From an uncultured Paracoccaceae bacterium (GTDB lineage Bacteria > Pseudomonadota > Alphaproteobacteria > Rhodobacterales > Rhodobacteraceae): a DNA stretch of 64,000 nucleotides. Location of the stretch: positions 186,001 through 250,000 of the forward strand of contig CANKYO010000008.1 in the NCBI GenBank assembly GCA_947488175.1, written 5' to 3'. The translations under genes were made by a program, and so were the position numbers. Each line of letters begins with the position of its first letter. The first letter of the stretch is position 1. The notes beneath the pieces are model-generated. The model did no database searches and was not told where the DNA came from. It saw nothing but the letters and a program-made list of their open reading frames with translations. Below, in pieces: positions 5,024 to 52,943 of the stretch.

Positions 5024-5027
5024 CCAG

Positions 5028-7422: not shown

Positions 7423-7477
7423 TTGCCGCCGGTCTTATCCAAACCTACTAATACGCAACGCAAGAGGGGTTTGACAC

Positions 7478-8491: not shown

Positions 8492-8492
8492 A

Positions 8493-12279: not shown

Positions 12280-12283
12280 TGAC

Positions 12284-13402: not shown

Positions 13403-13513
13403 GATTCCCCCGTTATCGTCGAAAAACCATATCAGGTGGTTACAACGCACAACACCGATATTCCTAGTGTGTGGTCTGCTGGCTAGGCAAGAGGATTTGA
13501 ATCGCGCACCCGA

Positions 13514-14620: not shown

Positions 14621-14715
14621 CGGATACCCCTTTGCTGTCCGCACGGGTCTAGCGGGCGCGACAATCAGGCTCAAGAGGTTTCCCTTGTCACCGACGCTGA
14701 TCCAGCCTAGCTAGG

Positions 14716-14800
14716 GCACACCTCGGGGGGCCAGAGATGGCTGAGATGCGTAAGCGGACCCGTTGAACCTGAACCGGTTAAGACCGGCGGAGGGAAGGTA
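14716..14800 (+). promoter_or_regulatory. TPP (THI-box) riboswitch
   Basis: The conserved elements of the thiamine pyrophosphate aptamer are all present: GGGGGGCC in the P1/P2 strand, GGCTGAGAT in the pyrimidine-binding arm, ACCCGTTGAACCTGA in the pyrophosphate arm, and CCGGCGGAGGGA closing P1. It directly precedes thiBPQ on the same strand, which supports thiamine-dependent repression of the transporter. Confidence 0.95.
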
Positions 14801-14815
14801 TGGCACTCGCGCTTA

Positions 14816-14844
14816 CCCCCAAATCCGCCCGTCGCATTTGGAGG
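14816..14844 (+). promoter_or_regulatory. Predicted SD-sequestering hairpin of the TPP riboswitch
   Basis: CCCCCAAAT (14816-14824) can pair with ATTTGGAGG (14836-14844) at 8 of 9 positions. The 3' strand contains the GGAGG ribosome-binding site of thiB, whose ATG is at 14850. This is the arrangement expected of a translational OFF switch downstream of the aptamer. The pairing is read directly; the switching role is inferred. Confidence 0.7.
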
Positions 14845-14849
14845 ATAAG

Positions 14850-25384: not shown

Positions 25385-25460
25385 GGGCCGTTAGCTCAGT
25401 TGGTAGAGCAACTGACTTTTAATCAGTAGGTCGATGGTTCGAACCCATCACGGCTCACCA
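25385..25460 (+). tRNA. tRNA-Lys (anticodon UUU), CCA encoded
   Basis: The 76 nt fold as a complete cloverleaf. The 7-bp acceptor stem is GGGCCGT with ACGGCTC. The D arm contains AGCTCAGTTGGTAGAGC, the anticodon loop is CTTTTAA with UUU, the T arm is GGTTCGAACCC, and a genomic CCA closes the gene. Its 3' 47 bp are repeated exactly at 52897-52943, so the gene is the insertion site of the island to its right and also serves as attL. Confidence 0.97.
25414..25460 (+). repeat. attL: 47-bp direct repeat inside tRNA-Lys
   Basis: These 47 bases, from the anticodon stem to the encoded CCA, are identical to 52897-52943. Flanking bases differ on both sides, so the match is exactly 47 bp. It marks the left junction of the integrated island. 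Confidence 0.93.
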
Positions 25461-25597: not shown

Positions 25598-26377
25598 ATG
25601 GGCCATATAAGGCTCGGGACACTGCAGCAGTCAAAGAAGTGGCGCGACGTCATTGGTTTGCTGGATGCTGGTGCAGATATTGAGAGCATTGCAGATGCAG
25701 CGGCACGTGCGTCCGAGCTGGATTTGCGGCGGGCTTCAGACGATCCTCTTTTTCAAAATGTGACACAGCTTCTTGTGCGTTTGCCGTTGTTGGCGCGTGC
25801 GCCAGGGTTCGCGGACGAGATGGCCAAGCTGGGCCTATCAACTGAGTCGCTGTCATCAGTGACCGGCTTGCTGTCGGGCCTAAATGACGTGATCAGCCAG
25901 CAGGCATTTGAACAAGGGCGCTCATCTGATGCAGGGGAACTGGCAAGGACCGCCCTGCTGGAAAGCCTGTCGGTGCAATTGAGAGACAAGCTGCCAACCC
26001 TCTTTGAGCCAACGTCACAAGAAGTGCGTGCGGCGCTAGCCTCGTTTTCCAGTGGGCAGGCATTTTCGCTTCTGGCCCGGGATTTCTTTGCCCGGCTAAC
26101 CTACCGGTCGCTCGACTATTATCTCAGCCGCGAGTTGGCCAACCATATAGGCAAAGGTCAGAGGTTTGGCGACGACGGCGACCGCATCGCATTTGAGTCA
26201 GCCCTGCGCCAGCACACATTTGAGGCGTCCAAAATAGTCGAGACATTCGCAGGCGGCTGGTACGGCAAGACGGTTTGGAAGGAGCAAACCCTCAGCCAAG
26301 ACAAGATTAACGACTTCACGCGATACGCCTTCAAAAAACTGAGGTCCGAGCTTGGTCGCCGTCGCACCGCAGCTTGA
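25598..26377 (+). CDS. Uncharacterised protein encoded beside a QueC-like enzyme
   Basis: The 259 residues match no family I recognise. The protein is mostly helical by composition, without signal peptide, membrane span or cysteine motif. It starts Met-Gly-His, so methionine removal would expose an N-terminal glycine. A GGGAGG ribosome-binding site lies 5 nt before the ATG. Its end overlaps the start of the QueC-like gene by 26 nt, so the two are translationally linked and very likely act together. In Qat and type IV CBASS defence, QueC-like enzymes act on a partner protein; this protein could be that partner, which is inference from arrangement. First cargo gene of the island. Confidence 0.75.
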   Translation: MGHIRLGTLQQSKKWRDVIGLLDAGADIESIADAAARASELDLRRASDDPLFQNVTQLLVRLPLLARAPGFADEMAKLGLSTESLSSVTGLLSGLNDVISQQAFEQGRSSDAGELARTALLESLSVQLRDKLPTLFEPTSQEVRAALASFSSGQAFSLLARDFFARLTYRSLDYYLSRELANHIGKGQRFGDDGDRIAFESALRQHTFEASKIVETFAGGWYGKTVWKEQTLSQDKINDFTRYAFKKLRSELGRRRTAA

Positions 26378-28199
26378 GCACACCGTTATTTGCTTGCCGC
26401 CCAAAGCCGACGGGCGTGGCGACGAACAACTTCACTTTGAGATCGACGGCAAGCCAAAGGCTGTTTCGCTCTGTATTGGCCGCATTCGCAAAGATCTTGT
26501 TTTGGGGCTTCCCGAGGTCGCCCTCGACCTGATCGAAATTGCCGCCTTCGTTTACGCGATCGATTCCAGTGTCAGCCGGGGTGGCCAAACTGATCAACAG
26601 ATGGGCACAAAGTGGCACAGGCGCTTTCACGTCTCTCTCCCAGTCCGCAACTTGGCGCTTTGGTCTGCCCCAGAACTGCAGCAAACGCTAGAAGAGACAT
26701 TGATGTTCCTTTCCGGTGATCGTTTCACTTTTGACTTTTCACAGATGGAACCCTCGGTATCTGTGGCTGAACAGTATTTTGATTTTGGCCAAGAGACAGC
26801 ATGGCAACCCGATTCCGTCTTGATGTTTTCAGGTGGCCTTGATTCTTTCGCGGGCGCACTTGAAGAGATCATCGACCATAAACACAAGGTGGCATTGATC
26901 AGCCATTTCTCGGCGACCAAAATTGCGCCAATCCAGCGCGATCTTCAAAAACATATGGCCGCAAAACTGGGACCGCAGATGCTCATGCATTTTCCCATGC
27001 GCGTGCAACTCAAACGCGGGACAAATGTAGAGGGCACGCATCGCACCCGATCTTTTCTGTTTGCGGCACTTGGCATGGCAACGGCAATCGCCTTTGGTCA
27101 ACAGCGCGTCTCTTTCTATGAAAATGGCGTTGTCAGCCTGAATTTACCACCTGTGGGCAACGTCCTTGGTACCCGCGCCACGCGGACGACCCATCCGCAA
27201 ACGCTGCAACGCTTTGAAGCATTATTCAGCTTGATTTTCCGGAGGGCACTGCGTGTCGACAATCCCTTCTTCTGGCGCACGAAAACGGACGTCGTGCAGA
27301 CCATTGCGCGCCTCGGTATGGCTGACCAGATCGCCTTTACCCGCAGCTGTGCTGACGTTCACAATCAGACTAAGCAACATCCCCATTGCGGCCGGTGTTC
27401 GCAGTGTATTGACCGGCGCTTTGCAATACTTGCAGCGGGGCTTGCGGCGCATGATCCTGAAGAGGCGTATCGTCTTGATCTCATGACGAGCCCCAGAGAG
27501 CGGGTTCAGGACAAGGAAGTAGCGTTGTCTTACGTGCGCAGTGCGTTTGCCTATGAAGCCTTAAACGCAGCTGACTTGATCTCTCAATATCCAGCCATTC
27601 TGAATGCTGTGGATAGCCTTGGCGAACCTCCCGATACTGCCTCGAAGCGAATTGCTGAACTTCTCAGACGGCACGGTACATATGTAGCATCCGCATTTCG
27701 CAACGCGCTGTCTGCTCAGCGGGCAATCGCGTTTGCTGCAAATAGCCTGCCAGACCTCTATGGCTCAATCCAGCGTGAACAGTTGTTCTTGTCGCACACC
27801 CCAGTTTCAGAAGCACAAATCAAAGAGGCAGAAGTCGTTGACCTTGTTATCGATAAGAGGCGAGCGAAGCTAACTATCAATGGCGCTGTCCAGATCAAAG
27901 GTGCTGCGTTTGCGTTACTCGATATCCTCGCAACTGAATTTCTGAAGGGCGTGGGGCAAGGACTTGATCCGCTTGATTACCCACCTCTTGCCGCCGAAAA
28001 ACTGGCCGGGCTTTTGAATGCAGAAAGCCCAGCTTCCGTGCGCCAAAACATCAATCGAACCCGCACTCAGATCGGCAAGAAGTTCATATCGGCTGGACTA
28101 GATCCTGAAACCGGCCAGGAAATCATCGAAAACTTGCCCTGGAAAGGGTACCGGCTTCGCCCTGACCGGGTGCGAGTCCGCTATTCGTCCGAGAAATGA
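26352..28199 (+). CDS. QueC-like (QatC/Cap9-type) PP-loop enzyme with C-terminal winged-helix-like domain
   Basis: The 615-residue protein has an N-terminal domain like that of QatC (WHRRFHVSLPVRN, then LSGDRFTFDF). An ATP-pyrophosphatase PP-loop SGGLDS follows at 160-165. The zinc-binding cysteines of QueC are in HCGRCSQC (C346, C349, C352), with one more upstream. QueC makes preQ0, but housekeeping QueC is about 230 residues. This long form resembles the QueC-like proteins of Qat and type IV CBASS defence loci. Residues about 495-600 look like a winged-helix domain (SPASVRQNINRTRTQIGKKF), an unusual addition. The start codon appears to be TTG at 26352, inside the upstream gene. No QatA, QatB, QatD or CD-NTase gene is nearby. 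Confidence 0.82.
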   Translation: MVAVAPQLEHTVICLPPKADGRGDEQLHFEIDGKPKAVSLCIGRIRKDLVLGLPEVALDLIEIAAFVYAIDSSVSRGGQTDQQMGTKWHRRFHVSLPVRNLALWSAPELQQTLEETLMFLSGDRFTFDFSQMEPSVSVAEQYFDFGQETAWQPDSVLMFSGGLDSFAGALEEIIDHKHKVALISHFSATKIAPIQRDLQKHMAAKLGPQMLMHFPMRVQLKRGTNVEGTHRTRSFLFAALGMATAIAFGQQRVSFYENGVVSLNLPPVGNVLGTRATRTTHPQTLQRFEALFSLIFRRALRVDNPFFWRTKTDVVQTIARLGMADQIAFTRSCADVHNQTKQHPHCGRCSQCIDRRFAILAAGLAAHDPEEAYRLDLMTSPRERVQDKEVALSYVRSAFAYEALNAADLISQYPAILNAVDSLGEPPDTASKRIAELLRRHGTYVASAFRNALSAQRAIAFAANSLPDLYGSIQREQLFLSHTPVSEAQIKEAEVVDLVIDKRRAKLTINGAVQIKGAAFALLDILATEFLKGVGQGLDPLDYPPLAAEKLAGLLNAESPASVRQNINRTRTQIGKKFISAGLDPETGQEIIENLPWKGYRLRPDRVRVRYSSEK

Positions 28200-30388: not shown

Positions 30389-32851
30389 ATGGACAAACGG
30401 TCACTGAGTGAGCGTGATATTTGCACGAAGTACATAACACCGGCACTTCGCCGGGCGGGTTGGGATGAATTAAACCAAATCCGGGAAGAGGTAAGCTTTA
30501 CCAAGGGTAGAATAATTGTCCGTGGGAAGTTGGTGAGTCGCGGTAAGGGAAAACGCGCTGATTACGTCCTTTCCGTTAAGCCGAATATTCCAATCGCGAT
30601 AATTGAGGCTAAGGAAAATACTCAAGCTATTGGCGCTGGTTTGCAACAGGGCCTGGAATACGCAGAGACGCTGGGAATTCCGTTTGTATTTTCTTCCAAT
30701 GGCGACGGCTTTGTCCTTCATGACCGCACTGGCATGAGCCCCACTCCTGAAGTCACGCTGTCGCTGGACCAGTTTCCATCGCCTGCCGAACTCTGGGCAC
30801 GGTATCGCCAGTGGAAAGGCTTGTCTGACGATGCGTCGACCGTTGCCCTACAGGATTACTTTGACGACGGCAGCAGTAAGACTCCGCGTTATTATCAAGT
30901 AAACGCTGTGAACTCTGCGATAGAGGTAATCGCAAAGGGGCAGGATCGCGTTCTGTTGGTGATGGCCACCGGTACCGGCAAGACATACACGGCCTTTCAG
31001 ATCATCTGGCGGCTTTGGAAAGCGGGCCAGAAGAAGCGCATCCTGTTTTTGGCCGATCGCAATGTGCTGATCGACCAAACGATGGTGAACGACTTCCGGC
31101 CTTTCGCAGGCAATATGGCCAAACTATCGACGCAGGCGAAAACCATTGAACGCGTGGATGGTACGTCAACTGATTTGACGTTGGCTTTGGACAAGCGTCG
31201 CCGAGTCGACACCTCATACGAAATCTATCTCGGTTTGTACCAAGCAATTACTGGCCCGGATGAAAGTCAAAAGCTCTATAAGGAGTTCTCACACGATTTC
31301 TTTGATCTGATCGTGATCGATGAGTGTCACCGCGGCAGTGCGGCCGACGACTCCGCCTGGCGGGAAATCCTCAACCATTTCACCTCGGCGACCCAGATTG
31401 GCCTGACCGCCACACCGAAAGAGACTGAGTATGCCTCCAACATCGATTATTTTGGCGCGCCCGTTTACAGCTATTCGCTGAAGCAGGGCATCCGCGACGG
31501 CTTCTTGGCGCCCTATAAGGTGATCAAGGTTCACATCGACCGCGACGTTCAGGGCTATCGACCTGTGCAAGGGCAACTCGACCGTGACGGCGAAGAGGTC
31601 GAGGATCGCATTTACAACACCAAGGATTTCGACCGCAGACTGGTTTTGGACGATCGCACCAAGCTGGTCGCCCAGAAGGTTTCGGAGTTTCTGAAGCAGA
31701 GCGGCGATCGGATGGCCAAGACGATTGTCTTTTGTGTGGATCAGGAACACGCGGCGCGGATGCGGCAGGCGCTGATCAACGAAAACGCTGATCTGGTGGC
31801 GCAAAACCATCGCTACGTCATGCGTATCACTGGGAATGACAAAGAAGGTCTTGATCAACTCGGCAACTTCATCGACCCCGAGGCTGCATATCCCGTCATC
31901 GTAACAACGTCGCGGCTTCTCTCCACTGGAGTCGATGCGCAGACGTGCCGCTTGATCGTATTGGACCGCGAGGTTGGGTCTATGACCGAGTTCAAGCAAA
32001 TTGTTGGTCGCGGCACCCGTGTGCATGAGGATACCCAAAAGCTGTTCTTCACAGTCATGGATTTCCGGGGCTCAACGAGCCATTTCGCCGACCCGGAATT
32101 CGATGGGGAGCCGGTTCAAATTTACCAACCCGGCCCAGATGATCCGATCACGCCACCAGAAGATGCCACCCAGACTGACGATGAAGGCGCGCCTCTCTCA
32201 CAGGAACCGGGCGATGATGAAACCGTTCTGATTGATCCGATCAATCCACTCGACCCTCTTGGTGGCAACACAGGCGGCGGCCCGATCCGCAAGGTTTACG
32301 TCGACGGGGTCGGCGCAGTCATTGTGGCTCAACGTGTTGAATACCTCGACGAGAACGGCAAGTTGGTCACAGAGTCTTTGCGCGATTACACCCGCAAGGC
32401 CCTGAAACGGCAGTACGCCAGCCTTGATGATTTTCTCAAGCGCTGGAAGGGTGAAGGCCGCAAGCAGGCCGTGTTCGAGGAATTGGCAGCCGAAGGCTTG
32501 CCGCTTGATGTCATAGCTGCGGAGCTTGGCAAGGATCTCGATCCCTTCGACCTGATCTGCCACATTGCCTTTGACGCAAAACCTCTCACCCGACGTGAGC
32601 GGGCTGAAAGCGTGAAAAAGCGCGATGTATTCACCAAATACGGCCCCCAGGCAAAGGCCGTTCTCGAAGCCCTGCTCGAAAAATACGCCGATGAGGGCGT
32701 CATGAACCTCGACGATCTTGGCGTCCTGAAGATCGCGCCGTTCAGCGGTATGGGAAGTGTTCTTGAACTCGTCCGTGCTTTCGGTGGAAAGCCAGGGTTC
32801 GAACAGGCCGTCCACGACCTGCAATCTGCTATTTACGAAGAAAGCGCATAA
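30389..32851 (+). CDS. hsdR: Type I restriction enzyme, R (endonuclease/translocase) subunit
   Basis: Motor and nuclease of a type I restriction-modification complex. The N-terminal nuclease core has D58, E73 and K75 (IIEAK). An SF2 helicase follows with Walker A ATGTGKT at about 193-199, a DECH box at about 310-313, TATP motif III and the GRGTRVHEDT motif VI. The C-terminal half binds the M and S subunits. The 820-residue length is normal for the EcoEI-like group. hsdM begins 3 bp after its stop. The first 500 bp are AT-richer than the rest. Confidence 0.94.
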   Translation: MDKRSLSERDICTKYITPALRRAGWDELNQIREEVSFTKGRIIVRGKLVSRGKGKRADYVLSVKPNIPIAIIEAKENTQAIGAGLQQGLEYAETLGIPFVFSSNGDGFVLHDRTGMSPTPEVTLSLDQFPSPAELWARYRQWKGLSDDASTVALQDYFDDGSSKTPRYYQVNAVNSAIEVIAKGQDRVLLVMATGTGKTYTAFQIIWRLWKAGQKKRILFLADRNVLIDQTMVNDFRPFAGNMAKLSTQAKTIERVDGTSTDLTLALDKRRRVDTSYEIYLGLYQAITGPDESQKLYKEFSHDFFDLIVIDECHRGSAADDSAWREILNHFTSATQIGLTATPKETEYASNIDYFGAPVYSYSLKQGIRDGFLAPYKVIKVHIDRDVQGYRPVQGQLDRDGEEVEDRIYNTKDFDRRLVLDDRTKLVAQKVSEFLKQSGDRMAKTIVFCVDQEHAARMRQALINENADLVAQNHRYVMRITGNDKEGLDQLGNFIDPEAAYPVIVTTSRLLSTGVDAQTCRLIVLDREVGSMTEFKQIVGRGTRVHEDTQKLFFTVMDFRGSTSHFADPEFDGEPVQIYQPGPDDPITPPEDATQTDDEGAPLSQEPGDDETVLIDPINPLDPLGGNTGGGPIRKVYVDGVGAVIVAQRVEYLDENGKLVTESLRDYTRKALKRQYASLDDFLKRWKGEGRKQAVFEELAAEGLPLDVIAAELGKDLDPFDLICHIAFDAKPLTRRERAESVKKRDVFTKYGPQAKAVLEALLEKYADEGVMNLDDLGVLKIAPFSGMGSVLELVRAFGGKPGFEQAVHDLQSAIYEESA

Positions 32852-32854
32852 TCA

Positions 32855-34303
32855 ATGTCCGTCCGTACCCTCGTCAAATCCATCCAAGACATCATGCGCA
32901 AAGACACCGGCGTGGATGGTGATGCCCAGCGCATCAGCCAACTCTGCTGGATGTTCTTCCTCAAGATCATCGACGATCAGGATCAGGAATTCGAACTCAC
33001 CAAGGACGATTACAAATCACCCATTCCGTCTGAACTGCAATGGCGAGCCTGGGCGGCGGACCCAGAAGGGATCACCGGTGACACCCTTCTGGAATTCGTG
33101 AACAACACTCTGTTCCCCGAACTCAAGACGCTGCCTGTCAATGCAGGTCCTCGCGCCAAGGTCGTCCGGGATGTGTTCGAAGACGCCTACAACTTTATGA
33201 AATCCGGCCAGCTGATGCGGCAGATGATCAACAAGATCAACGAGGTCGACTTCAATAATCTGACCGAACGCCAGCACTTCGGCGACATCTACGAGCAAAT
33301 CCTGAACGACCTGCAAAACGCGGGCAACGCGGGCGAATACTACACGCCGCGCGCCGTCACCGCCTTCATGGTGCAGCAGATCGATCCTACCCCCGGGGAG
33401 GTCATGTTCGACCCCGCTTGCGGCACCGGCGGCTTTTTGACCTGCGCCATGCGGCACATGCGCGACAATTACGTCAAACGGCCCGAGCATGAGGCGCTGA
33501 TGCAAGGCGCCCTGCGCGCTGTGGAAAAGAAGCCACTGCCCCACATGCTCTGCGTCACCAACATGCTGCTCAACGGGGTCGAAGAACCCGACTTCGTGCG
33601 CCACGACAACACCCTCGCGCGCCCTCTGGTCAGCTGGACCCGTGATGAACGCGTCGATATCGTTCTGACCAACCCGCCCTTCGGCGGCAAGGAGGAGGAC
33701 GGGATCGAGAGCAACTTCCCGACATTCAAGACCCGCGAGACCGCCGATCTCTTCCTTGCCCTGATCATCCGCCTGCTGAAACCCGGTGGCCGTGCAGCTG
33801 TGGTCCTGCCCGATGGGTCGCTATTCGGCGAAGGGATCAAGACCCGCCTCAAGGAACACTTGATGGAGGACTGCAACCTGCACACCATCGTGCGGCTGCC
33901 CAACTCGGTCTTCAAACCCTATGCCTCCATCGGCACCAACCTGCTGTTCTTTGAAAAGGGCACGCCGACACAGGACATCTGGTATTGGGAACACAAGGTG
34001 CCCGAGACGCAGAAAGCCTATTCCATGACCAAGCCGATCCGGCTGGAGCATCTGGACGACTGTGCCGCATGGTGGGGCGGGGCCGCGCGCGAGGGGCGCG
34101 TTGAGGGCCCGCAGGCGTGGAAGGTCACGGCGGAAGAGATCAAGGCGCGTGGCTATAACCTTGACGTCAAGAACCCCCATACGGTTTCCGAGGATCATGG
34201 CGACCCCGAAACCCTGCTGGCCGATTTGACAGCGGCAGAGGCCGAGACAGTCGCCCTGCGCGATCAGTTGAAAGCGATCCTGACCGAGGCGCTGACCCGA
34301 TGA
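32855..34303 (+). CDS. hsdM: Type I restriction enzyme, M (adenine-N6 methyltransferase) subunit
   Basis: Methylates adenine in the recognition site to protect host DNA. The 482 residues have the HsdM helical N-terminal domain (1-140), the AdoMet motif DPACGTGGFL at about 186-195 and the catalytic NPPF at about 272-275. The gene overlaps hsdS by ATGA. Enzyme appears intact. Confidence 0.96.
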   Translation: MSVRTLVKSIQDIMRKDTGVDGDAQRISQLCWMFFLKIIDDQDQEFELTKDDYKSPIPSELQWRAWAADPEGITGDTLLEFVNNTLFPELKTLPVNAGPRAKVVRDVFEDAYNFMKSGQLMRQMINKINEVDFNNLTERQHFGDIYEQILNDLQNAGNAGEYYTPRAVTAFMVQQIDPTPGEVMFDPACGTGGFLTCAMRHMRDNYVKRPEHEALMQGALRAVEKKPLPHMLCVTNMLLNGVEEPDFVRHDNTLARPLVSWTRDERVDIVLTNPPFGGKEEDGIESNFPTFKTRETADLFLALIIRLLKPGGRAAVVLPDGSLFGEGIKTRLKEHLMEDCNLHTIVRLPNSVFKPYASIGTNLLFFEKGTPTQDIWYWEHKVPETQKAYSMTKPIRLEHLDDCAAWWGGAAREGRVEGPQAWKVTAEEIKARGYNLDVKNPHTVSEDHGDPETLLADLTAAEAETVALRDQLKAILTEALTR

Positions 34304-36006
34304 AGGACGCCACGTTTTCCTCTGCCCGCCTGCTGGCGCTTTACGAGCGTATCTCTGACGCCGAAGACGCCATACCCCGCCTGCGCCGCTTCGTGCTGGA
34401 TTTGGCCGTGCGCGGAAAGCTAGTGGAGCAAGATGCGGGCGATGAACCGGCGGCGGAGTTGTTGAAGCGGATCGCGCAGGAGAAGGCGCGGCTTGGAATC
34501 AAGCGTCCCTCACAAGGCTATGACGCAACTGATCTTCCATTTGCGTTGCCTCATGGCTGGGCATTGACCTCTATTGGTGAGGTCTGCTCCAAGACGGGTT
34601 CAGGAAGCACCCCACGGGGCGGAAAAGAGGTCTACTCAGACAACGGTATCCCCTTCTTGCGGTCGCAAAATGTCTACGATGACGGCCTGCGCCTCGATGA
34701 TGTTGCTCTTATCGCCGAAGAAATACATGAACGGATGTCCGGCACGGCAGTAAAGCCTGCTGACTTGCTTCTGAACATTACGGGCGGCTCAATGGGGCGC
34801 TGCTGCCGTATTCCGGATGACTTTAACGAGGCCAACGTAAGCCAGCACGTCGCGATCATTCGTGCAGCATTGACCGGCATGGCCGACTTTTTGCACCGCT
34901 TGGTGCTTTCCCCATACTTTCAGGCCTTCATCTTTGGCGAGCAGACGGGCGCTGGGCGCGGCGGGCTACCTAAGAACCGCATGGATCGAATTGCGGTCGC
35001 ACTCCCACCCCTCGCCGAGCAGCACCGGATCGTGGCCAAGGTCGATGAACTCATGGCGCTGTGTGATCAGTTGGAACAGGCCCGCGCGGGGCGCGAAGCG
35101 GTGCGGGATCGGCTGACCACCGCCAGCCTCGCCCGCCTGACCACCCCCGATACCGACGCGGAAACCTTCCAATCGCACGCCCACTTTGCCCTGCAATCCC
35201 TCACCACCCTCACCACCCGCCCCGACCAAATCAAAACCCTCCGCCAGACTTTTCTGAACCTCGCCGTGCAGGGTAAGCTGGTAGCGCAAGACGGGGCCGA
35301 TGAGCCTGCAGAGGAGCTGCTTAAACAGATTAAACTCCATATAAAAAAACGGTCGGATTGCCCGAAGTCTGATGACAAGCATGCCCTTCCACACGGGTGG
35401 GCATGGGCGACGATTGACGAATTATCCGATGTGGGAACAGGAGTAACTCCGTCAAAGTCTGAGCCCGCATATCACAGTAACGGAACTGTTCCGTGGGTTA
35501 ACAGTGCTGCGACCAATTCTCCAACTATTGCTTCTGTTGAAACCTTCGTTACTGAACGAGCGGTAAAAGAATGTCGTCTAAAAATCTATCCTCAAGGAAG
35601 CTTGGTGATCGCCCTTTATGGACAGGGTAAGACACGAGGTCAGGTAGCTGAATTGCGCATTGCCGCGACAGTGAATCAGGCGTGCGCTGTGATTGTCTTG
35701 CCTGAGGGCTTTCAGGGTTTGCGGTCATACATTCATCTGAGCTTGAAAAAACAGTACGTGGAGATGCGTAGTTTGGCAGAGGGTGGAGCGCAGCCCAATT
35801 TGAATTTGGGGAAGATCAAGTCACTTCCAATCCCTCTCCCGCCCTTCGCCGAACAACAGCGCATTGTGGCAAAGGTCGATGCCTTGATGACCCTCTGCGA
35901 TCAACTGGAGGCCAGCCTCACCACCGCCGACTCCACCCGCAGCAAACTTCTCAACGCCCTCATACACAAGGCGCTGGAGCCTGCTGCAGAAACAGCCGAC
36001 GCATGA
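34300..36006 (+). CDS. hsdS: Type I restriction enzyme, S (specificity) subunit
   Basis: Determines the bipartite DNA target. The 568 residues contain two target-recognition domains (about 80-235 and 360-515). Each is followed by a conserved helical spacer: LAEQHRIVAKVDELM at about 237 and FAEQQRIVAKVDALM at about 514. The halves are clearly repeats, down to the LPHGW lead-in before each domain. The stretch around the second domain is AT-richer, which fits recent domain exchange. It overlaps both hsdM and the following MBL gene by ATGA. Confidence 0.94.
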   Translation: MKDATFSSARLLALYERISDAEDAIPRLRRFVLDLAVRGKLVEQDAGDEPAAELLKRIAQEKARLGIKRPSQGYDATDLPFALPHGWALTSIGEVCSKTGSGSTPRGGKEVYSDNGIPFLRSQNVYDDGLRLDDVALIAEEIHERMSGTAVKPADLLLNITGGSMGRCCRIPDDFNEANVSQHVAIIRAALTGMADFLHRLVLSPYFQAFIFGEQTGAGRGGLPKNRMDRIAVALPPLAEQHRIVAKVDELMALCDQLEQARAGREAVRDRLTTASLARLTTPDTDAETFQSHAHFALQSLTTLTTRPDQIKTLRQTFLNLAVQGKLVAQDGADEPAEELLKQIKLHIKKRSDCPKSDDKHALPHGWAWATIDELSDVGTGVTPSKSEPAYHSNGTVPWVNSAATNSPTIASVETFVTERAVKECRLKIYPQGSLVIALYGQGKTRGQVAELRIAATVNQACAVIVLPEGFQGLRSYIHLSLKKQYVEMRSLAEGGAQPNLNLGKIKSLPIPLPPFAEQQRIVAKVDALMTLCDQLEASLTTADSTRSKLLNALIHKALEPAAETADA

Positions 36007-43589: not shown

Positions 43590-43769
43590 GACTAAGAAGT
43601 CAGCAGGGAGCAGATTGCATTCTCCTTAGGTGCAGGTGGCGCGATCGGCGTGGCTAACATCCCATGACGGCCCTTCAGCAGGACGAAGCGTGTGTATTCG
43701 GGCTGACCAAGTAGCTGGGTCAGGTTCTCGATATATTTGCAGCGGTTGCTGCAATATGAGGAGAACGAA

Positions 43770-43965
43770 ATGGATTACTTTGTGAGTTTGGAAGTGTTGC
43801 TGCGGTCAGTCGCTGTTTGCGTGATTGATGCCGACGGCAAGCAGGTCTTTGGACGGCAAGCAGGTCTTTGAGCGTGCTGTCGCTTACGAGATTGAGGATA
43901 TCGTGGCCTGCCTGGGCGATATGCTGTCCCGGCAGTGCCGGATCGGTTTGGCTGATACTCGCTGA
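43770..43965 (+). pseudogene. IS110-family transposase fragment
   Basis: After a GAGGAG ribosome-binding site, MDYFVSLEVLLRSVAVCVID matches the N-terminus of IS110 DEDD transposases. The frame is broken by an exact 19-bp tandem duplication (43833-43851 and 43852-43870). Reading through one copy continues as VFERAVAYEIEDIVACL and CRIGLADTR. About 60 of some 340 codons remain. Confidence 0.7.
43833..43870 (+). repeat. 19-bp tandem duplication inside the IS110 fragment
   Basis: Two exact, adjacent 19-bp copies (GACGGCAAGCAGGTCTTTG). Nineteen is not a multiple of three, so the duplication itself shifts the transposase frame. Confidence 0.9.
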
Positions 43966-44121
43966 TGTGAACAACACCTGACCGGGCAAACCGCGAACCA
44001 TCCTCCGCAGAATGACCAGATCAGTCAAAAGTCAGACGTTTGTGTCACTGGCGGAGTAGACCGTTTTTGCCGCCTTGATCTCATTCCTGCCGTTCATCAT
44101 CTCGCGGCGAAAGCTCCCAAA

Positions 44122-44290
44122 GAGCCCATACCGGAAGTCTTCATTTCTTGTTGCATGCACTCGCAGCACAAAAATCGCTGCAGTTGCTCGATTTTGGCCG
44201 CTGCGATGCTACAGCGAATCCGGTCATTGGTCACTGCTGCAGCGCAAATAGTTTGTTTAAAGATCAAGTCGTGGACAAAGGTGCTTCTCA
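44122..44290 (+). repeat. Dispersed repeat, copy 2
   Basis: Counterpart of 39432-39600 in the same orientation, with the same ordered blocks and several small indels. No conserved open frame. Confidence 0.6.
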
Positions 44291-44869
44291 ACCGTCATCT
44301 CCTGAGCACCTCTCCAAGGTGTAAAAGTCTTCACGCCGTCCCAACTTTCTCCAAGCGAACGTCTCAAATAGCTGCCGCGCTCTATGCCGAGCGCGCCGGT
44401 ACATTGGTGGTGGTTCTTGACCGTTGCCGCGTGAACGCCATCAGCTTGCACGTCCAACTTTTCCATTGGGACTTCGATGAAAAGTCGCACGCCGCTTACA
44501 GCTTCGCACCCTGCCGCTCTAGCAAGCGTTAGTTGCTCCATGGCAAAGCCTTGAGGGCGAGGTCGGCACCGACTTCGGTATTAAATGCACCAGCGGCATG
44601 GTGGTTGGAGAAAAGATCCAAGATACTATCCGACGATACAGAACTCCGGCTTACACCGATTAGACGTGAATCCCTGCATTCAATTATTACTGAGCAAAAT
44701 TGACAACGGTCGGCGCCGACGCTTTTCTTTCAGCAGGCGCTTTGAACCAAAAGTAATTCGCTATGATCGATCCTAAGGACGCCTCGCTTGGGCGAAGGCA
44801 TTGTCGCCTCCCAAGATCGAAACGACCCCAAGAAGACCCACAAACCGAATTAGAACGGAGAATTCGCAA

Positions 44870-46783
44870 ATGAGATTGATTGAAAGATTGCGGGCCGACG
44901 TTGACGAACACTCGTTCGACAAGGCCATCGAAGTTGCCGGGGCAAAACTGCGCGAAGAATCGCAAAGCGGGGGCCTGGAAAGCGCCGCCGCGCCGACCGC
45001 GGATATAGATGCCACACAAGAAATGATCCGCACGGGCAAGGGGCTCGAAGGCGGCCCCGGCCCCGTCCAAAGCGGGCTTGAGGCGATCATTCTCGGCGAA
45101 CTGCGCCCGGCCTGGTTTATTCGCGACGACAAGATCGTCGTCGCCGGCGATTTCGACCGCTTAGCAGAATTTGAAAGCAACCGGATTGCGCTTGAAGCCA
45201 TCGCCAAGACTGTCGGCCGCGTCGATCTTCTCAACCACGCGACGCAGGCCTATGTCGGCACCGGCTGGCTGGTCGATAAGGACATTGTGGTCACCAACCG
45301 CCACGTCGCCGAGACCTTCACGCGCCCGGCCTGGCCCAGCGGATGGGACTTTGCGACCGGTACCTTCGGCCGCCCGCTGCGAGTCGAGATCAACACCGTG
45401 CAGCAGTTGGACACTGACCCGTCGCTGCGCCGCCCAATGACGGTCACCGAGGTTCTGTATGTCGCGGGTCAGCGCGAACCCGACATCGCCTTTCTTCGTG
45501 TCCTGCCCGACCCGGCAATAGACCCGATCCCCCTCGCCGCCACCCTTCCGGCCGAGAAAACAGCCGTGGCAGCCATCGGTTATCCGGCCTCGGATGCCAC
45601 GCGCAACGATCCTGATCTGATGCGGCAGATCTTTGGCATCGACTATGACGTTAAGCGGTTCAGTCCGGGCCTCGCCAACGATTATATCGAAGACGGCGCC
45701 TTGATGCTGACGGATTACACGACGCTTGGCGGAAACTCCGGCTCGGCAGTGGTGGCGTTGGAAACGGGCAAAGCGGTCGGGCTACATTTCGCCGGCTTGT
45801 TTGGCGAAACTAACTATGCCGTGTCGGGCGACATTCTCGCCGCAACCTTGCGCTCTATGAAATCCAGCATCAGCCTTTCGGGCTTCGACGCCTTGCCCGA
45901 TCATGCCGAACGCCGCAAACCCAGTCATTTCGACGGGCGGCAAGGCTATGACCCAGCGTTTCTAGGCGACGGCGCGTTGCGCGTCGACTTCCCCGATCTC
46001 GGCGGGCGCGCCGACGACGTCGCCCCAGTGGAAGCCGCCGCCGACGGCATCCTGCGCTACACCCATTTCTCGGTCATTCAGTCGAAATCGCGGCGCCTAC
46101 CGATGCTGGCGGCGGTCAATATCGACGGTGCTAAAGCCTTCGCGCTCAAACGAAAAGGAAGCTGGCACACCGACGGACGGATCGACGAAGCCCATCAAGT
46201 CGACAACGTGCTGTACAAGCATAACCCGCTCGACCGCGGGCACATGGTTCGGCGCAAGGACCCCGGTTGGGGCGACAGCGAGGCTGAGGCGAAGCAAGGC
46301 GAAATAGACACGTTTATGTACACCAACTGCGCGCCGCAACACGAGGATCTGAACCAGAAGGATTGGGTGGGGCTTGAGGATTACATCCTCGAGGCGGCCG
46401 ACACCAAAGATTTCAAGGTCTCGGTGATGACGGGTCCGATCTTCCGCGACAGTGACCGGCGGCTGAAGTCACAACCGGGTGCCGAAGATGTGCAGATCCC
46501 CGAAGCCTATTGGAAACTTGCGGTCATGGTGAACGAGGCCACTGGGACGCTGAGCGCGACCGCCTATCTCTTGACCCACGGCGATTTGATCCGCGACCTG
46601 ACCGAAGCGGCCTTCGTCTTCGGCGAATACAAGACCTATCAAATCAAGGTGTCGAAACTCAGCGCGCTTACAGGGTTCGATTTCAGCGCCATGTCCGCCT
46701 ATGACCCGTTGGCGCCGGAACCAGAAGGACTGTTCGGACGCGCCGCGCGCCAACTCGACGGGGCCGACAGCCTCACGCTTTGA
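44870..46783 (+). CDS. Trypsin-like serine protease fused to a DNA/RNA non-specific endonuclease
   Basis: The 637-residue protein has three parts. Residues 1-120 are an uncharacterised, charged region. Residues 125-335 are a trypsin/HtrA-like protease with H145 (VVTNRHVAE), D205 (REPDIAFLRV) and S290 (LGGNSGSAV). Residues 400-600 are a betabetaalpha-metal NUC endonuclease with H458 in DRGHMVRR, the metal asparagine in FMYTNCAPQ and the glutamate in VGLEDYI. All catalytic residues are present in both enzymes. There is no signal peptide or membrane span, so it is probably cytoplasmic. The ATG at 44870 is preceded by GGAGA; the upstream ATG at 44801 is less likely. A related gene follows 226 bp downstream. 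Confidence 0.9.
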   Translation: MRLIERLRADVDEHSFDKAIEVAGAKLREESQSGGLESAAAPTADIDATQEMIRTGKGLEGGPGPVQSGLEAIILGELRPAWFIRDDKIVVAGDFDRLAEFESNRIALEAIAKTVGRVDLLNHATQAYVGTGWLVDKDIVVTNRHVAETFTRPAWPSGWDFATGTFGRPLRVEINTVQQLDTDPSLRRPMTVTEVLYVAGQREPDIAFLRVLPDPAIDPIPLAATLPAEKTAVAAIGYPASDATRNDPDLMRQIFGIDYDVKRFSPGLANDYIEDGALMLTDYTTLGGNSGSAVVALETGKAVGLHFAGLFGETNYAVSGDILAATLRSMKSSISLSGFDALPDHAERRKPSHFDGRQGYDPAFLGDGALRVDFPDLGGRADDVAPVEAAADGILRYTHFSVIQSKSRRLPMLAAVNIDGAKAFALKRKGSWHTDGRIDEAHQVDNVLYKHNPLDRGHMVRRKDPGWGDSEAEAKQGEIDTFMYTNCAPQHEDLNQKDWVGLEDYILEAADTKDFKVSVMTGPIFRDSDRRLKSQPGAEDVQIPEAYWKLAVMVNEATGTLSATAYLLTHGDLIRDLTEAAFVFGEYKTYQIKVSKLSALTGFDFSAMSAYDPLAPEPEGLFGRAARQLDGADSLTL

Positions 46784-47009
46784 CGTGCGGCATCCGAATA
46801 CAACACTGCGGGGCCTGGCCGGCTAAGACGGCCTGGCCCGCCACTACGGTTGCGAACCCCACGCGAAATTCGCCTTGAGCGCCGCCTTAGTCGGGCCGCA
46901 CTGAATGGACTAAGTTCAACCCATGTTCTAGGGTCCTCCCAATAGTTCGTTTTTGAATTGAGCGGCAGACGCACGCCGCGGTCGAGGCCAGGACATTCGG
47001 CGGAAGGCA
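46784..47009. other. Spacer between the two protease-nuclease genes
   Basis: These 226 bases hold no gene. At about 46810-46840 imperfect GC-rich arms (GCGGGGCCTGGCCG and CGGCCTGGCCCGC) can form a hairpin without a T run, possibly an attenuator. The second gene may have its own promoter here. Confidence 0.35.
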
Positions 47010-49490
47010 ATGGACAGCGATAAGGACACCACCGGCGCCTCGGGGCTTGAAAAGATGGGTGGCCTTGAAAAGAACATCGGCCTGGGCAGTTCCATCGTCG
47101 ACAGCCAGATTGCGAATGTCGTCAACCAGTTTGGCGACTTCGTGTGCCAAGTTCTGCATGCCACGCCCAGCGGCTTTACCGCTGTCGGCACAGGGTTTCT
47201 CATCGGTCCCCGCCATGTCCTAACCAATTTCCATGTGGTCGAAGGGGTCGACGTGAAGAATCTGCGCTGCCGGTTCGACGTCGTCAGCTCGGTCCTTTCC
47301 GAATTCGAAGCCGGTCCGCTGCTCTCTGTCGAAAAGATCCTCGCCCAAAGCCGCTACGCCGAGATCGAGGCAAACGGTAAATACACGCCAACTTCCGACC
47401 AACATCCCGGGGCGGAAGAGCTTGACTATGCCTTGCTGGAAATCGACTCAGCCGTCCAAAATCTGGCGGCAAAGGATGGCTCTGGCAAACGCAGACGCGG
47501 ATGGCTGCCGCTGCCAGACAAGCCGCAAAAGCTTTCGAATGGTACGCCGATTATCATTCTGCAGCACCCCGATGGCGCCACGCTAAAGGTGGCCTCGGAC
47601 GCTATCGCACAGCGCCAGCCGCCAAACGGATCGCGCCTGCGGTATCTGGCTGACACTGATCGTGGATCGTCTGGCTCGCCCTGCTTCGCTTATGTGGACG
47701 GGCCAGACGGCAAGCCGCAGCTGGCGCTTGTCGCGTTGCACAATTTCGGCGATCCCGGCACGAAGCTTCGCAGTCCAGAGTTCAACCATGGCATTCCCGT
47801 CGACCTCATTTTCAAGTCGCTCGTCAACGCGGGTGTTCCAAAATCGGCCTTCTCCAGACCGGTACCAGCGGGGTGGCGACCGCCCTGGGTCGCACTGGCC
47901 TGCGGACTGGCCGCGGTTGTCGCACTGGTCGTTGTCATAGTGCTCCCGCGCGGCAACGATCCGATCATTGTTCCAGACCCACCCGATCCGCCGACCGGCG
48001 ACGAATACAGCCTCGCCGCGCCCATCCCCTACGATCCGGATTTTTTGGGGAAGGTTAGAGTCCCTCTGCCGACTCTGATCTCTGCCGCGGCCGCAGGCGA
48101 TGTTCTTGATGGGCAAGTGCTTGATTACGTTCACTACTCACTCGTCATGGACGAACGCCGGGGCATGCCGCTGTATGTGGCCTACAACACCGACCGCCAG
48201 AATTGGATTGGGGTGAGACGCGAAGGCGAGTGGCGGAAGGACGCGCGTATCGATGAGGATCTGCAGAAGGGCGGCGGGGTCTACCGCTCGAACGACTGGG
48301 ACCGCGGGCACATGGCCAGGCGGACGGCCTTGACATGGGGTGACACTGAAACGGCACGCCTCGCCGGATTGTCTTCATTCTATTATACGAATTCGGTGCC
48401 ACAGCATCGAAACTTTAACCAAGGAATCTGGCTCGACCTAGAAGACTATGTGTTCGAAGGCTTCAGCCCGTCGTCGCCGCGAGTTTCTGTCTTTACCGGC
48501 CCAGTACACCGCTGGGACGACCCGGAATATCGGGGCGCACGCATCCCTCGGTCGTTCTGGAAAATCGTCGTCGCATCGGACCCCAAGAACCCCCGGAACA
48601 TTTTCACAGCCGGCTTCCTGCTCGATCAGTTCGAGATCATGGATGGAGAACCGACGCCATTTCCGATAAACATGGCGCTGGATCCGGCAGCGGCTCAAGT
48701 CGCCATTGCCGAGATCGAAGAACTCACCCCGCTCAGGTTTGGGATTCTGAAGGATTTCGAGGTCGAGCTTAGCCCCGCCAACCCCGGCAGCCGCGAACTT
48801 CTCGACACCTACCCGGCCGAAAAATCCGCGATCAACGTCCTGGCTCTCAGCTGGCAGCCTGCCTTCTGCGAACGGCGGCCCGACAAGCCAGAGTGCATCG
48901 CCCTCAACAACGGCGAAACCGCGCATGCCGAAGGACAATTCTCGATCCACGGCCTATGGCCGCAGCCGATCGGCAACTTTTACTGTGGGGTCCCCGAACG
49001 TATTCAAATGTCTGACCGTTCTGGCATCTGGGACGGCGTCCCTGACGTCCTGCTGAAATTCGAGACCTACGACCAGCTTGTGCATCTGATGCCCGGCACC
49101 GAGAGCGGGCTATACCGACACGAGTGGATCAAACACGGCACCTGCTATGGCGGGACCGGCGGCGCCGAAGAATACTTCGCCGACACGATTTGGGCGACCC
49201 AGGAAATCAACGGTTCGGCCGTCAAGACATTGTTTGCCGACAACATTGGTCAAACCCTGACAGAGCAGGAAATCCGGGGTGCCTTCGACAATGCGTTCGG
49301 CGCAAACGCGGGCGAGCGGGTTGCGATCCTGTGCCAGGGCGACGGCACACGCGCCCTGATCAGCGAGCTCCGCATTCATCTTGGCGCGGTCATCGACCAG
49401 GAAACACCGATGTCAGATCTGCTCGCCAGCCACGAGCCGGTTCAGACCCGGTGCCAAGCTGGGATCGTCGATCCCGCTGGGTTGCAGTAG
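47010..49490 (+). CDS. Trypsin-like protease - transmembrane helix - NUC endonuclease - RNase T2 fusion
   Basis: The 826-residue protein joins four modules. A trypsin-like protease (about 40-260) has H75 (TNFHVVEG), D139 (ELDYALLEI) and S221 (DRGSSGSP). One hydrophobic helix at about 293-312 (WVALACGLAAVVALVVVIVL) follows. A NUC endonuclease (about 350-600) has H434 in DRGHMARR, then FYYTNSVPQ and LDLEDYV. A C-terminal RNase T2 (about 610-826) has CAS I FSIHGLWP (H647) and CAS II HEWIKHGTC (H704, E705, H709). All active sites are intact. With an arginine before the helix and no signal peptide, an N-in topology would put the protease in the cytoplasm and both nucleases in the periplasm; the cysteine-rich RNase domain fits that. 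Paralogue of the preceding gene. Confidence 0.92.
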   Translation: MDSDKDTTGASGLEKMGGLEKNIGLGSSIVDSQIANVVNQFGDFVCQVLHATPSGFTAVGTGFLIGPRHVLTNFHVVEGVDVKNLRCRFDVVSSVLSEFEAGPLLSVEKILAQSRYAEIEANGKYTPTSDQHPGAEELDYALLEIDSAVQNLAAKDGSGKRRRGWLPLPDKPQKLSNGTPIIILQHPDGATLKVASDAIAQRQPPNGSRLRYLADTDRGSSGSPCFAYVDGPDGKPQLALVALHNFGDPGTKLRSPEFNHGIPVDLIFKSLVNAGVPKSAFSRPVPAGWRPPWVALACGLAAVVALVVVIVLPRGNDPIIVPDPPDPPTGDEYSLAAPIPYDPDFLGKVRVPLPTLISAAAAGDVLDGQVLDYVHYSLVMDERRGMPLYVAYNTDRQNWIGVRREGEWRKDARIDEDLQKGGGVYRSNDWDRGHMARRTALTWGDTETARLAGLSSFYYTNSVPQHRNFNQGIWLDLEDYVFEGFSPSSPRVSVFTGPVHRWDDPEYRGARIPRSFWKIVVASDPKNPRNIFTAGFLLDQFEIMDGEPTPFPINMALDPAAAQVAIAEIEELTPLRFGILKDFEVELSPANPGSRELLDTYPAEKSAINVLALSWQPAFCERRPDKPECIALNNGETAHAEGQFSIHGLWPQPIGNFYCGVPERIQMSDRSGIWDGVPDVLLKFETYDQLVHLMPGTESGLYRHEWIKHGTCYGGTGGAEEYFADTIWATQEINGSAVKTLFADNIGQTLTEQEIRGAFDNAFGANAGERVAILCQGDGTRALISELRIHLGAVIDQETPMSDLLASHEPVQTRCQAGIVDPAGLQ

Positions 49491-49753
49491 CGCCTGCGCA
49501 CGGCAATACCAGCGTTTCGTTGGATAAGCGGTGACGTGCCGGCGCAATATTTGGGCCACGGGCAGGCGGCCGCACGGCAGGAACAATCCGCCAAATTTGC
49601 GTTGCAGATATAGTATATCCATCGGCGTTGGCGGCGGTAGATAGCCCGCCTCGGCCATGGCCATTTCATGCTCTTCATCCGCAGGTACTGGTTGCGGTCA
49701 GTGAAATCGAACTTTTTCGCTTTCTGAACAGCCTTAAAGGCTGTTGTAATCAT
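49413..49753 (-). pseudogene. Decayed C-terminal fragment resembling AarF/UbiB kinase family
   Basis: Across a frameshift, the minus strand reads AFKAVQKAKKFDFT and then MAEAGYLPPPTPMDILYLQRKFGGLFL with LPVAQILRRH. This resembles the C-terminal part of ABC1/AarF-family proteins. No start, kinase motifs or continuous frame remain, and it overlaps the end of the protease-nuclease gene. Family assignment is tentative. Confidence 0.4.
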
Positions 49754-50064
49754 GTGAAGGATAGGCTCCGTCCCCTACTTAGTTGTCGGCCCCTATTCCG
49801 GCGAAAACCTGGATTGGGTTTCGCTCTCCAGATTGGGTTTTTATGACTGCTCTGACGACACATACTGCAAACAGGCATCCTCGGTGCCGCACATGCGAAC
49901 AGATGCTGCGTGAGCGAAACGCTGAAACTGGAAGTCCGCTTAGTCCCGCATTGTGTGAGTTCGTCGGTCGACCGATTGCGCGTTTGCAGCGAATGTCCGG
50001 ATCAAGAGGGACACGGCAGCGTCGCCACTTGCCAGACAGCGGCAAGCAACCGAACCAGCGGACA
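49491..50064. other. Degraded region right of the protease-nuclease genes
   Basis: Apart from the AarF-like fragment no gene is visible. GCAGCGAATGTCCGG at 49986-50000 is another copy of the short dispersed motif found at 39368-39381. Confidence 0.45.
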
Positions 50065-51569: not shown

Positions 51570-52727
51570 TCAACCTTTGTTCATCTTCCCGGCCATGACT
51601 TCAGCCGCAGCACGGAGTGGTTCATCGGCAAGATGAGCATACCGCTGTGTTGTGAGTGGATTCGTATGACCCAGAAGCCGCCCGACAACGGCGAGGCTCA
51701 TGCCGCTGGAAACTAGTTGCGATGCATGCGTGTGGCGATTGTCATGGATCCGATAGTTTTGAATCTCAGCATCAACGAGAACAGATCTCCAGAATTTTTT
51801 AAGATCGACAATATGTTTGGTCTTCGATCTCCCAGGGAATACGAACAATGATCCATTGCCTTGCGCGTCCTGAATACTTTTGATCAATGCGACTGCGGAC
51901 TTAGCCAAGGGCAAGTGCTCAGTGCGTTTCTGCTTAGTGTGATGCGAAGGCTTGATCCATACCCCGCGATCAAGATCGAAATCGGACCATTGAGATGAAA
52001 GGACCTCTCCAATCCGTGAGCCTGTCAATAATTGAAGCCGTATCGCGTTCGCAGCCTTTTGATTTGGGTGTCTATCCAGAGCCGCACCGAGACGGTTTAG
52101 CTCTTCAACGGAAAGCCAGCGGTGCCGCTTCTCTTCGTGAAATCTCTCAATGCCTTTGGCTGGATTGTCGTGCCGCATTCCCCAATTGATTGATAACTCA
52201 AACATCTTCGAAAGTAGCGATAGGACTCTGTTAGCCTGATAGGGCGTCGCCTTTAATGAATTATGGAATGTCTGAATGGCACGATGATCTATATCAACGA
52301 CCTTTAGCTTGCCAAACCGAGGCAAGATGAGACGATCCAGCATGGAGCGATCGTTCGCCACGCTTTTCTGTCGCTTCTTGGGAAGTGCGTGGATCTCATA
52401 GTATTGCTTTGCTAGATCAGCTAACGTTGGAGCTCGCCTAATTGCTGTTGCGTCAGCGACGGGATCGCCTCCGCGCATAACGTCCGACAGCAAACCAGTG
52501 GCTAGCGCTTTGGCCTGATTGAACGACATCAGTGGCCCGTGTTGGCCAAGCGTCTTGCGTCTTGATCTACCAGTTGCGCGCGTCCGATACTGAATAACAT
52601 AGGATTTTGTGCCGTTGGGTTTCAGCCGCAAACCGAAGCCGGGTAAAGCCTCGTCCCAATAGACAGTTTCGGACTTGGGATCGGGCATTTTGTCGACAGC
52701 TGATTTTGAAAGGCGGAGTTTTGGCAT
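51570..52727 (-). CDS. Tyrosine recombinase, P4-type integrase of the tRNA-Lys island
   Basis: The 385-residue integrase has the N-terminal DUF4102 arm-binding domain (YWDEALPGFGLRLKPNGTKSYVIQYR), a core-binding domain and a complete catalytic domain. The arginine is in TGSRIGEVLSSQW, the lysine in HHTKQKRTEHLPL, the HxxR box is HDNRHTHAS, and LGHTNPLTTQRYAHL holds the last histidine and tyrosine. Such integrases use tRNA 3' ends. It lies 170 bp inside the 47-bp tRNA-Lys repeat, so it is the likely enzyme that inserted the island. Confidence 0.94.
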   Translation of the reverse strand: MPKLRLSKSAVDKMPDPKSETVYWDEALPGFGLRLKPNGTKSYVIQYRTRATGRSRRKTLGQHGPLMSFNQAKALATGLLSDVMRGGDPVADATAIRRAPTLADLAKQYYEIHALPKKRQKSVANDRSMLDRLILPRFGKLKVVDIDHRAIQTFHNSLKATPYQANRVLSLLSKMFELSINWGMRHDNPAKGIERFHEEKRHRWLSVEELNRLGAALDRHPNQKAANAIRLQLLTGSRIGEVLSSQWSDFDLDRGVWIKPSHHTKQKRTEHLPLAKSAVALIKSIQDAQGNGSLFVFPGRSKTKHIVDLKKFWRSVLVDAEIQNYRIHDNRHTHASQLVSSGMSLAVVGRLLGHTNPLTTQRYAHLADEPLRAAAEVMAGKMNKG

Positions 52728-52896: not shown

Positions 52897-52943
52897 GACT
52901 TTTAATCAGTAGGTCGATGGTTCGAACCCATCACGGCTCACCA
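52897..52943 (+). repeat. attR: 47-bp copy of the tRNA-Lys 3' end
   Basis: Exact copy of 25414-25460. It lacks the 5' half of the tRNA and is therefore not a functional gene. It marks the right end of an island of about 27.5 kb. Confidence 0.93.

Follow-up and report, generated by a model that had tools for sequence, protein, structure and literature searches.

A tRNA-Lys element carries paired protease-nuclease genes, one predicted to be membrane-anchored and fused to RNase T2: a probable two-compartment NucA-trypsin module

A mobile element at a tRNA-Lys gene, within 64,000 nucleotides of DNA from an uncultured Paracoccaceae bacterium (the window), carries two neighbouring genes, ORF1 and ORF2, each of which joins a protease to an Endonuclease_NS nuclease. 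To judge by its domains and relatives, the pair is probably an island-borne member of the NucA-trypsin (LypC) family that works in two compartments: ORF1 would be cytoplasmic, ORF2 would sit in the inner membrane with its nuclease (of a group termed NUC2 here) and its RNase T2 domain in the periplasm, and the module would be switched by its proteases. The features of the pair are:

44870..46783, + strand: ORF1, 637 aa, predicted soluble protease plus NUC1 nuclease, LypC-like
45257..45784, + strand: ORF1 protease domain, chymotrypsin fold (aa 130-305; H145, D205, S290)
46043..46687, + strand: ORF1 Endonuclease_NS domain (aa 392-606; DRGH 455-458, N495, E503)
46691..46780, + strand: conserved C-terminal tail of ORF1 with an SLxL-like end (aa 608-637)
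47010..49490, + strand: ORF2, 826 aa, protease, transmembrane helix, NUC2 nuclease, RNase T2
47187..47690, + strand: ORF2 protease domain (aa 60-227; H75, D139, S221)
47889..47945, + strand: predicted single transmembrane helix of ORF2 (aa 294-312)
48111..48740, + strand: ORF2 Endonuclease_NS domain, NUC2 group (aa 368-577; DRGH 431-434)
48837..49382, + strand: ORF2 RNase T2 domain, lacking a signal peptide of its own (aa 610-791; H647, H704, E705, H709)

Pfam assigns Trypsin_2 (130-305, 4.5e-16) and Endonuclease_NS (392-606, 5.8e-45) to ORF1, and Trypsin_2 (60-227, 9.3e-15), Endonuclease_NS (368-577, 9e-38) and Ribonuclease_T2 (610-791, 5.2e-16) to ORF2. These are the domains that a sequence-only reading of the window had proposed, and all the residues it had named as catalytic (both protease triads, both DRGH motifs and the four T2 residues) are present. 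Its term ‘trypsin-like’ for both proteases is best taken as a fold-level name. ORF2 is one open frame with no internal stop, and its codon-position GC is similar throughout, the T2 part included. The two genes are co-directional and 226 bp apart; scanning their surroundings for promoters and terminators gave nothing above shuffled sequences.

ORF1 belongs to a large family, with 2939 matching proteins (its own included) among the 8000 best candidates scored; named close relatives include Arenibacterium, Roseibium, Alisedimentitalea and Sagittula. In the best 120 of these 2939 matches, the window copy among them, S290, D455, G457, H458, N495 and E503 are kept without exception, H145 and D205 in 119 (the remaining one has a gap), N486 in 115 and R456 in 114, a retention that exceeds chance by far. 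The tail at 46691-46780 ends in L635 and L637, each conserved at 90% or above across 46 aligned rows; a docking or inhibitory role is possible for this tail of the family. A search for an export signal in ORF1 found no 19-residue segment with hydropathy of at least 1.8. Among 99 related genomes ORF1 has any match at 1e-3 in 14, and near-full-length matches occur in the window's own genome and otherwise only in G032 (46% and 40% identity). The best PADLOC match of ORF1 is to the model ‘nacht’ (1.3e-16), but the stretch matched (aa 211-329) belongs to the protease, and ORF1 has no NTPase domain by Pfam; a NACHT identity was rejected.

The nucleases of the two genes belong to different groups. 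In a tree of 74 nuclease domains out of 181 extracted, rooted for drawing only, ORF1 and ORF2 fall in separate supported groups: 20 ORF1-like rows make up one side of a branch (support 100/98), as do eight NUC2 rows (100/98), and a wider NUC1 side of 37 rows (99/96) takes in ORF1, LypC-like proteins and other protease fusions. The NUC2 group consists of ORF2, the proteins P0002-P0006, a Telluribacter protein (L027) and a Fibrella protein (L028). A Planctomycetales protein (L033) joins it at 98/89 on a long branch, both nucleases of the L033 locus being long-branched. The earlier description of ORF1 and ORF2 as adjacent paralogues holds insofar as they are neighbours whose nucleases share 32% identity over 262 aa; these are the only parts that BLASTP aligns at an E-value of 1e-3. 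A recent tandem duplication was rejected, since the proteases do not align and the nucleases lie in different groups.

A predicted helix ahead of the nuclease separates the groups further. ORF2 has a single strong hydrophobic stretch, and its best 19-mer (294-312) agrees with the helix proposed earlier at 293-312. A helix of hydropathy at least 1.8 is present in 8/8 NUC2 proteins vs 0/124 NUC1 proteins, at a cut chosen after the values had been seen; at 1.6 one of the 124 NUC1 proteins passes, and at 1.9 seven of the eight NUC2 proteins do. P0004-P0006 and the Telluribacter protein carry a TIR domain in the protease's place before the helix (the TIR score of P0004 lies slightly below the Pfam cut-off), as would be expected if the N-terminal side is cytosolic, and P0004 has an additional Ig-like domain on the presumed periplasmic side. 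The T2 part of ORF2 contains six cysteines (aa 620-815) and its NUC2 domain none, which suits periplasmic folding behind the helix; the NUC2 domain is free of cysteine in seven of the eight proteins, but so are 45 of the 124 NUC1 domains, and this lack speaks only weakly for a periplasmic location. Lysine and arginine around the helix show a weak bias, two before and one after in ORF2, two and two in P0003. Taken together, the single helix, the TIR relatives and the T2 cysteines favour the topology that had been suggested, with the protease inside and the nucleases outside. In P0003 an extra region of no Pfam match lies between helix and nuclease (about aa 385-545); on inspection it looks like a degenerate protease.

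NUC2 proteins are rare. ORF2 has 19 matching proteins, itself included, among the 7998 best word-sharing candidates scored, and among those 19 only P0002 and P0003 have a protease, a helix and a NUC2 nuclease as ORF2 does. The sequence-only reading had proposed a search for homologues with the full three-domain order: the order protease, helix, NUC2 nuclease recurs in these two, with the ORF2 protease triad kept in both, and the RNase T2 domain is found in neither. The ORF2 alignment has six rows, and every one of them keeps the nuclease residues. Searches of 385 genomes of the class, 390 of the order and 398 of the phylum, which are overlapping samples searched at differing E-value limits, gave nothing near the ORF2 nuclease besides the window. 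The only order match and the three phylum matches fit the NUC1 HMM far better than the NUC2 HMM; the class matches outside the genus (L068, L069, L071, L072 and L074) are placed by their 36-41% identity alone, outside the tree. A phage origin was also considered and rejected: a scan of viral contigs yielded 11 loci, all with short nucleases of 30-41% identity over part of the domain, and so no phage home is seen for the protease-nuclease family. The division into a soluble NUC1 clade and a rare, apparently membrane-anchored NUC2 clade looks new.

The two groups tend to occur together. A NUC1-side gene is present at five of the six NUC2 loci that could be judged, namely the window, the contigs of P0002 and P0003, L027, L028 and L033; P0004-P0006 were left out of the count, their contigs being 2487, 1843 and 5153 bp. 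From identical contig sizes we infer that P0002 shares a contig with P0033 (8555 bp) and P0003 with P0034 (10959 bp), so that ORF1-like and ORF2-like genes would occur together on two other contigs, the co-occurrence that had been proposed for checking. The sixth locus, L028, has no NUC1 within the 18.8 kb covered; its neighbours are CHAT and TPR-S genes. At L027 the gene order is NUC1, protease-hydrolase, TIR-TM-NUC2, TIR-WD40, TPR-S and TIR, and at L033 it is NUC1, protease, an unassigned gene, protease-protease-NUC2 and protease-lipase. By their predicted gene content all three neighbourhoods appear to be of conflict type. Among relatives on plasmids, 10 of 13 loci, which were hand-picked from two top-20 lists and whose gene tables are incomplete, have another protease or a conflict-type gene nearby, and three (L024, L025 and L076) have no obvious conflict partner. 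The recurrent co-occurrence of NUC1 and NUC2 looks new.

Some of the loci inspected have unusual arrangements of their own. The Bradyrhizobium plasmid pB41S5 (L023) carries a protease-nuclease gene with two more protease genes, with a phospholipase D-like gene on one side of them and a Dpd 7-deazaguanine cluster on the other. In G032 (L063, C2:3784000-3803000, positions 6705-16834) one protein of 976 aa combines Lipase_3, protease and nuclease and adjoins genes that match RdrB (4e-26) and, weakly, RdrA (3e-5), which gives it a RADAR-like neighbourhood. At L110 (9302-12211, - strand) a 969-aa protein, with an N-terminal region of about 430 aa followed by a protease and a NUC1-type nuclease, appears to be another three-part fusion.

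The element that carries the pair has these features:

25385..25460, + strand: tRNA-Lys(ttt), the integration site, whose 3' end (25414-25460) is one att copy
26352..28199, + strand: QatC-like gene (PADLOC 2.5e-58), element cargo near the tRNA gene
30389..36006, + strand: type I restriction-modification genes hsdR, hsdM and hsdS, element cargo
51570..52727, - strand: tyrosine integrase of the element
52897..52943, + strand: second att copy, a 47-bp exact repeat of the tRNA 3' end, at the right edge of the element

The repeat of the tRNA end and the adjoining integrase gene define an element of about 27.5 kb, and the pair does lie, as first described, in a tRNA-Lys island with a type I restriction-modification (R-M) system. 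Further cargo includes a RelA/SpoT-domain gene and an MBL-like gene (36003-37289) that directly follows hsdS and has weak LmuA (6e-11) and Avs1a (1.2e-5) matches. Our scan of the element covered 17 of its 22 ORFs of at least 100 aa, the pair included, and left out five short ones. Among the 15 other ORFs scanned there is no STAND NTPase, EAD, trypsin-like, caspase, LypA or LypB gene, nor any match to other Qat parts; with no STAND NTPase or sensor gene there, the trigger of the pair is either missing or elsewhere. Heavy decay on both sides had been claimed, and with it selection to keep the pair. Decay is not borne out: the flanking ORFs scanned (HsdR, HsdM, HsdS, Abhydrolase_9, SRAP and integrase) each span most of the profile of their family. 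The gaps at 43590-44869 and 49491-50064 hold short ORFs only.

The tRNA-Lys end is an integration hotspot in the genus. The left flank is common to eight stretches from eight genomes of the genus; in two genomes (L102 in G014, L103 in G003) a duplicate of the tRNA-Lys end stands next to a related integrase (35-37% identity), and further nearby copies of the tRNA end occur in G004, G024 and G035. An empty site, with the window's right flank joined to the tRNA gene, was not found in the same-genus stretches. Elsewhere in the window a TPP riboswitch (14714-14812) lies just upstream of ORFs at 14763-18032.

The RNase T2 part of ORF2 is its most singular feature. The conserved active-site motifs of RNase T2 are present in it. 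The domain aligns with RNase I (2ea1) over residues 15-223 of 245, and its match to the RNase I model begins at position 37 of 268, which indicates that the signal peptide is absent; export of this part would then depend on the upstream helix. A T2-only search, confined to 768 candidates of 454-1445 aa that have exact words in common with the query, returned ORF2 and one other, a 458-aa protein with T2 as its only listed domain, and within the searches made the protease-nuclease-RNase T2 fusion is unique to ORF2. The nearest relatives of ORF2, P0002 and P0003, lack the domain, so that RNase T2 does not belong to the system generally; it was probably added to the periplasmic end once and recently. 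Its acquisition from the host's own T2 gene is unsupported: that gene (209 aa, contig C5) is 27% identical to the ORF2 domain, vs 42-45% for T2 proteins of Sinorhizobium plasmids.

With such a domain, ORF2 might be thought to scavenge extracellular nucleic acids from its membrane anchor, much as periplasmic RNase I does, its protease serving for processing only. The T2 part is RNase I-like, its plasmid relatives are ribonucleases or hypothetical proteins where they are named, and both NUC2 and T2 are probably periplasmic. The genome already has a separate T2 gene, however, the pair is borne on an island with R-M, and the relatives of the NUC2 nuclease are joined to TIR or protease domains, those of L027 and L028 amid TIR, TPR-S, CHAT and hydrolase genes. 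We therefore hold scavenging to be very unlikely, and a conflict module the likelier reading because most family contexts inspected are of conflict type, the island carries R-M and the pairing recurs elsewhere. To that extent the immune or toxin role suggested earlier finds support; the novelty claimed for the system does not.

A relative of the pair is resident in the same genome. On contig C3 (L062, C3:449000-467000, positions 1295-9851) lie genes for an S8 protease, a LypA-like protease, an NTPase of 1064 aa and a LypC-like protease-nuclease, the last being 37.5% identical to ORF1 over 576 aa. The order of the last three genes is matched in G032 (L064) and on two plasmids (L078 and L079), and their products align over most of their length except for the NTPase of L078 (620 columns only). 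Judged by domain order and length, not by LypA or LypB sequence, the locus appears to have the LypABC layout. The genome also carries a GTA_TIM gene.

The one tested relative gives a counterpoint to the view of the nucleases as effectors. Caulobacter LypC serves lysis in gene transfer agent (GTA) release through its protease: the S296A mutant abolishes GTA lysis and the nuclease mutants H471A and N505A do not, and the C. endophyticus homologue has no nuclease (Banks et al. 2026, PMC13236601). The proteases may thus be the working part of the pair as well, ORF1 and ORF2 being orphan LypC-like signalling or lysis proteases whose nuclease domains mainly stabilise them or play a minor role, and the GTA_TIM gene and LypABC-like locus of the host genome would suit this. 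We regard it as unlikely, since the nuclease residues D455, G457, H458, N495 and E503 are kept in every one of the 120 listed ORF1 relatives, and since ORF2 has acquired one more nuclease domain, itself intact, an acquisition that idle nucleases would hardly account for.

We favour the two-compartment, protease-switched module, which would work as follows. ORF1 would be a cytoplasmic protease-nuclease. ORF2 would span the inner membrane, its protease domain facing the cytoplasm and its NUC2 and T2 domains facing the periplasm. When the cell is disturbed, most likely by the activity of a phage or a mobile element, the protease domains would start proteolysis. By analogy with the cascade proposed by Kaur et al. 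and with the essential protease of LypC, proteolysis might then unleash the cytosolic nuclease, lysis or both. The periplasmic DNA/RNA nuclease and RNase would be kept harmless by the membrane. They could attack nucleic acids that enter through it or are exposed at its failure. Periplasmic RNase I reaches cell RNA upon membrane damage.

The periplasmic nucleases could instead form a standing barrier of the element, cutting incoming phage or conjugative DNA and so protecting the host without suicide. Membrane-tethered nucleases in the periplasm, if correctly predicted, and a mobile element setting are what such a barrier would show, but it has no need for a cytosolic protease or TIR side or for a soluble partner, and we consider it highly improbable. 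As no trigger gene was found among the scanned element ORFs, we also propose a link to the resident LypAB-like genes, by which ORF1 and ORF2 would act as one two-compartment, proteolysis-switched effector that plugs into the CARD-NLR machine of LypAB type as its nuclease executioners. This link is a speculative one, distinctly unlikely as matters stand; were it real, the pair could also act during gene-transfer-agent release.

On this speculative reading, NUC1 plus NUC2 would amount to a general design not recognised so far: either sensor, protease or TIR, could stand before the helix, and further domains would gather at the periplasmic end, such as RNase T2 in ORF2 and the Ig-like domain in P0004. 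Since TIR takes the place of the protease before this helix in some relatives, the signal input is open to test, and the T2 fusion is a natural gain-of-domain case for asking whether the nuclease side, dispensable in LypC, matters in ORF2. Protease-gated nucleases are a predicted and little-tested arm of bacterial immunity, and the recurring pairing of a soluble with a membrane-anchored nuclease suggests that such systems may cover two compartments. Parallels of these systems to animal cell death are drawn in the papers cited here (PMC7159879, PMC8195603, PMC13236601).

The closest described systems are the NucA-trypsin conflict systems (‘System 3’) of Kaur et al. 2020 (PMC7159879), mentioned again in Kaur et al. 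2021 (PMC8195603). They are mostly alphaproteobacterial and comprise Endonuclease_NS/trypsin-like fusions, some with TM segments and in multiple copies side by side; related loci have an S8 protease and a STAND NTPase, and the proteolytic cascade deploying the nuclease is a prediction there, not a demonstration. Our pair shares the NucA/Endonuclease_NS domain in both ORFs, the trypsin-like peptidase fused to each, a TM segment (the one helix of ORF2) and two copies side by side. It differs in having no adjacent STAND NTPase, S8 or EAD1 gene among the scanned element ORFs; an RNase T2 fusion and the pairing of a soluble with a membrane group are not mentioned in the section of the 2020 paper on these systems. 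From LypABC, a CARD-NLR-like system of Caulobacter in which LypA is a CARD-protease and LypB an NLR-like ATPase (PMC13236601), the pair differs in that ORF1 has no adjacent LypA or LypB among the 15 other element ORFs scanned and ORF2 has no counterpart; the order of the two domains in ORF1 is that of LypC and its length similar, the Caulobacter LypC sequence itself being outside the comparison. The ORF1 protease is also weakly similar to Avs1b of Avs1 (AVAST type 1) at 3.3e-4, but no STAND partner was found, the NCBIfam Avs1b score of ORF1 is 11.7 bits against a curated cut-off of 1500, and the MBL-like gene with the Avs1a match lies 7.6 kb from the pair. The TIR-TM-Endonuclease_NS proteins (P0004-P0006 and Telluribacter L027) share the NUC2 group and the single pre-nuclease helix with ORF2, and have TIR instead of the protease and no RNase T2. 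The T2 part resembles RNase T2/RNase I (PF00445) in its active-site motifs, near full-length domain and six cysteines, and differs from RNase I in lacking a signal peptide and in being fused behind protease, helix and nuclease. The open literature, judged by titles and abstract openings, yielded no paper that treats a fusion of protease, nuclease and RNase T2 or the pairing of NUC1 with NUC2. According to these sources, then, the kind of system that had first been put forward as a new candidate is already described, its architecture predicted in 2020 (PMC7159879) and its relative LypC studied genetically (PMC13236601). The pair is less novel than first supposed, and what looks new in it is the triple fusion, seen nowhere else in the searches made, and the proposed recurring two-compartment design.
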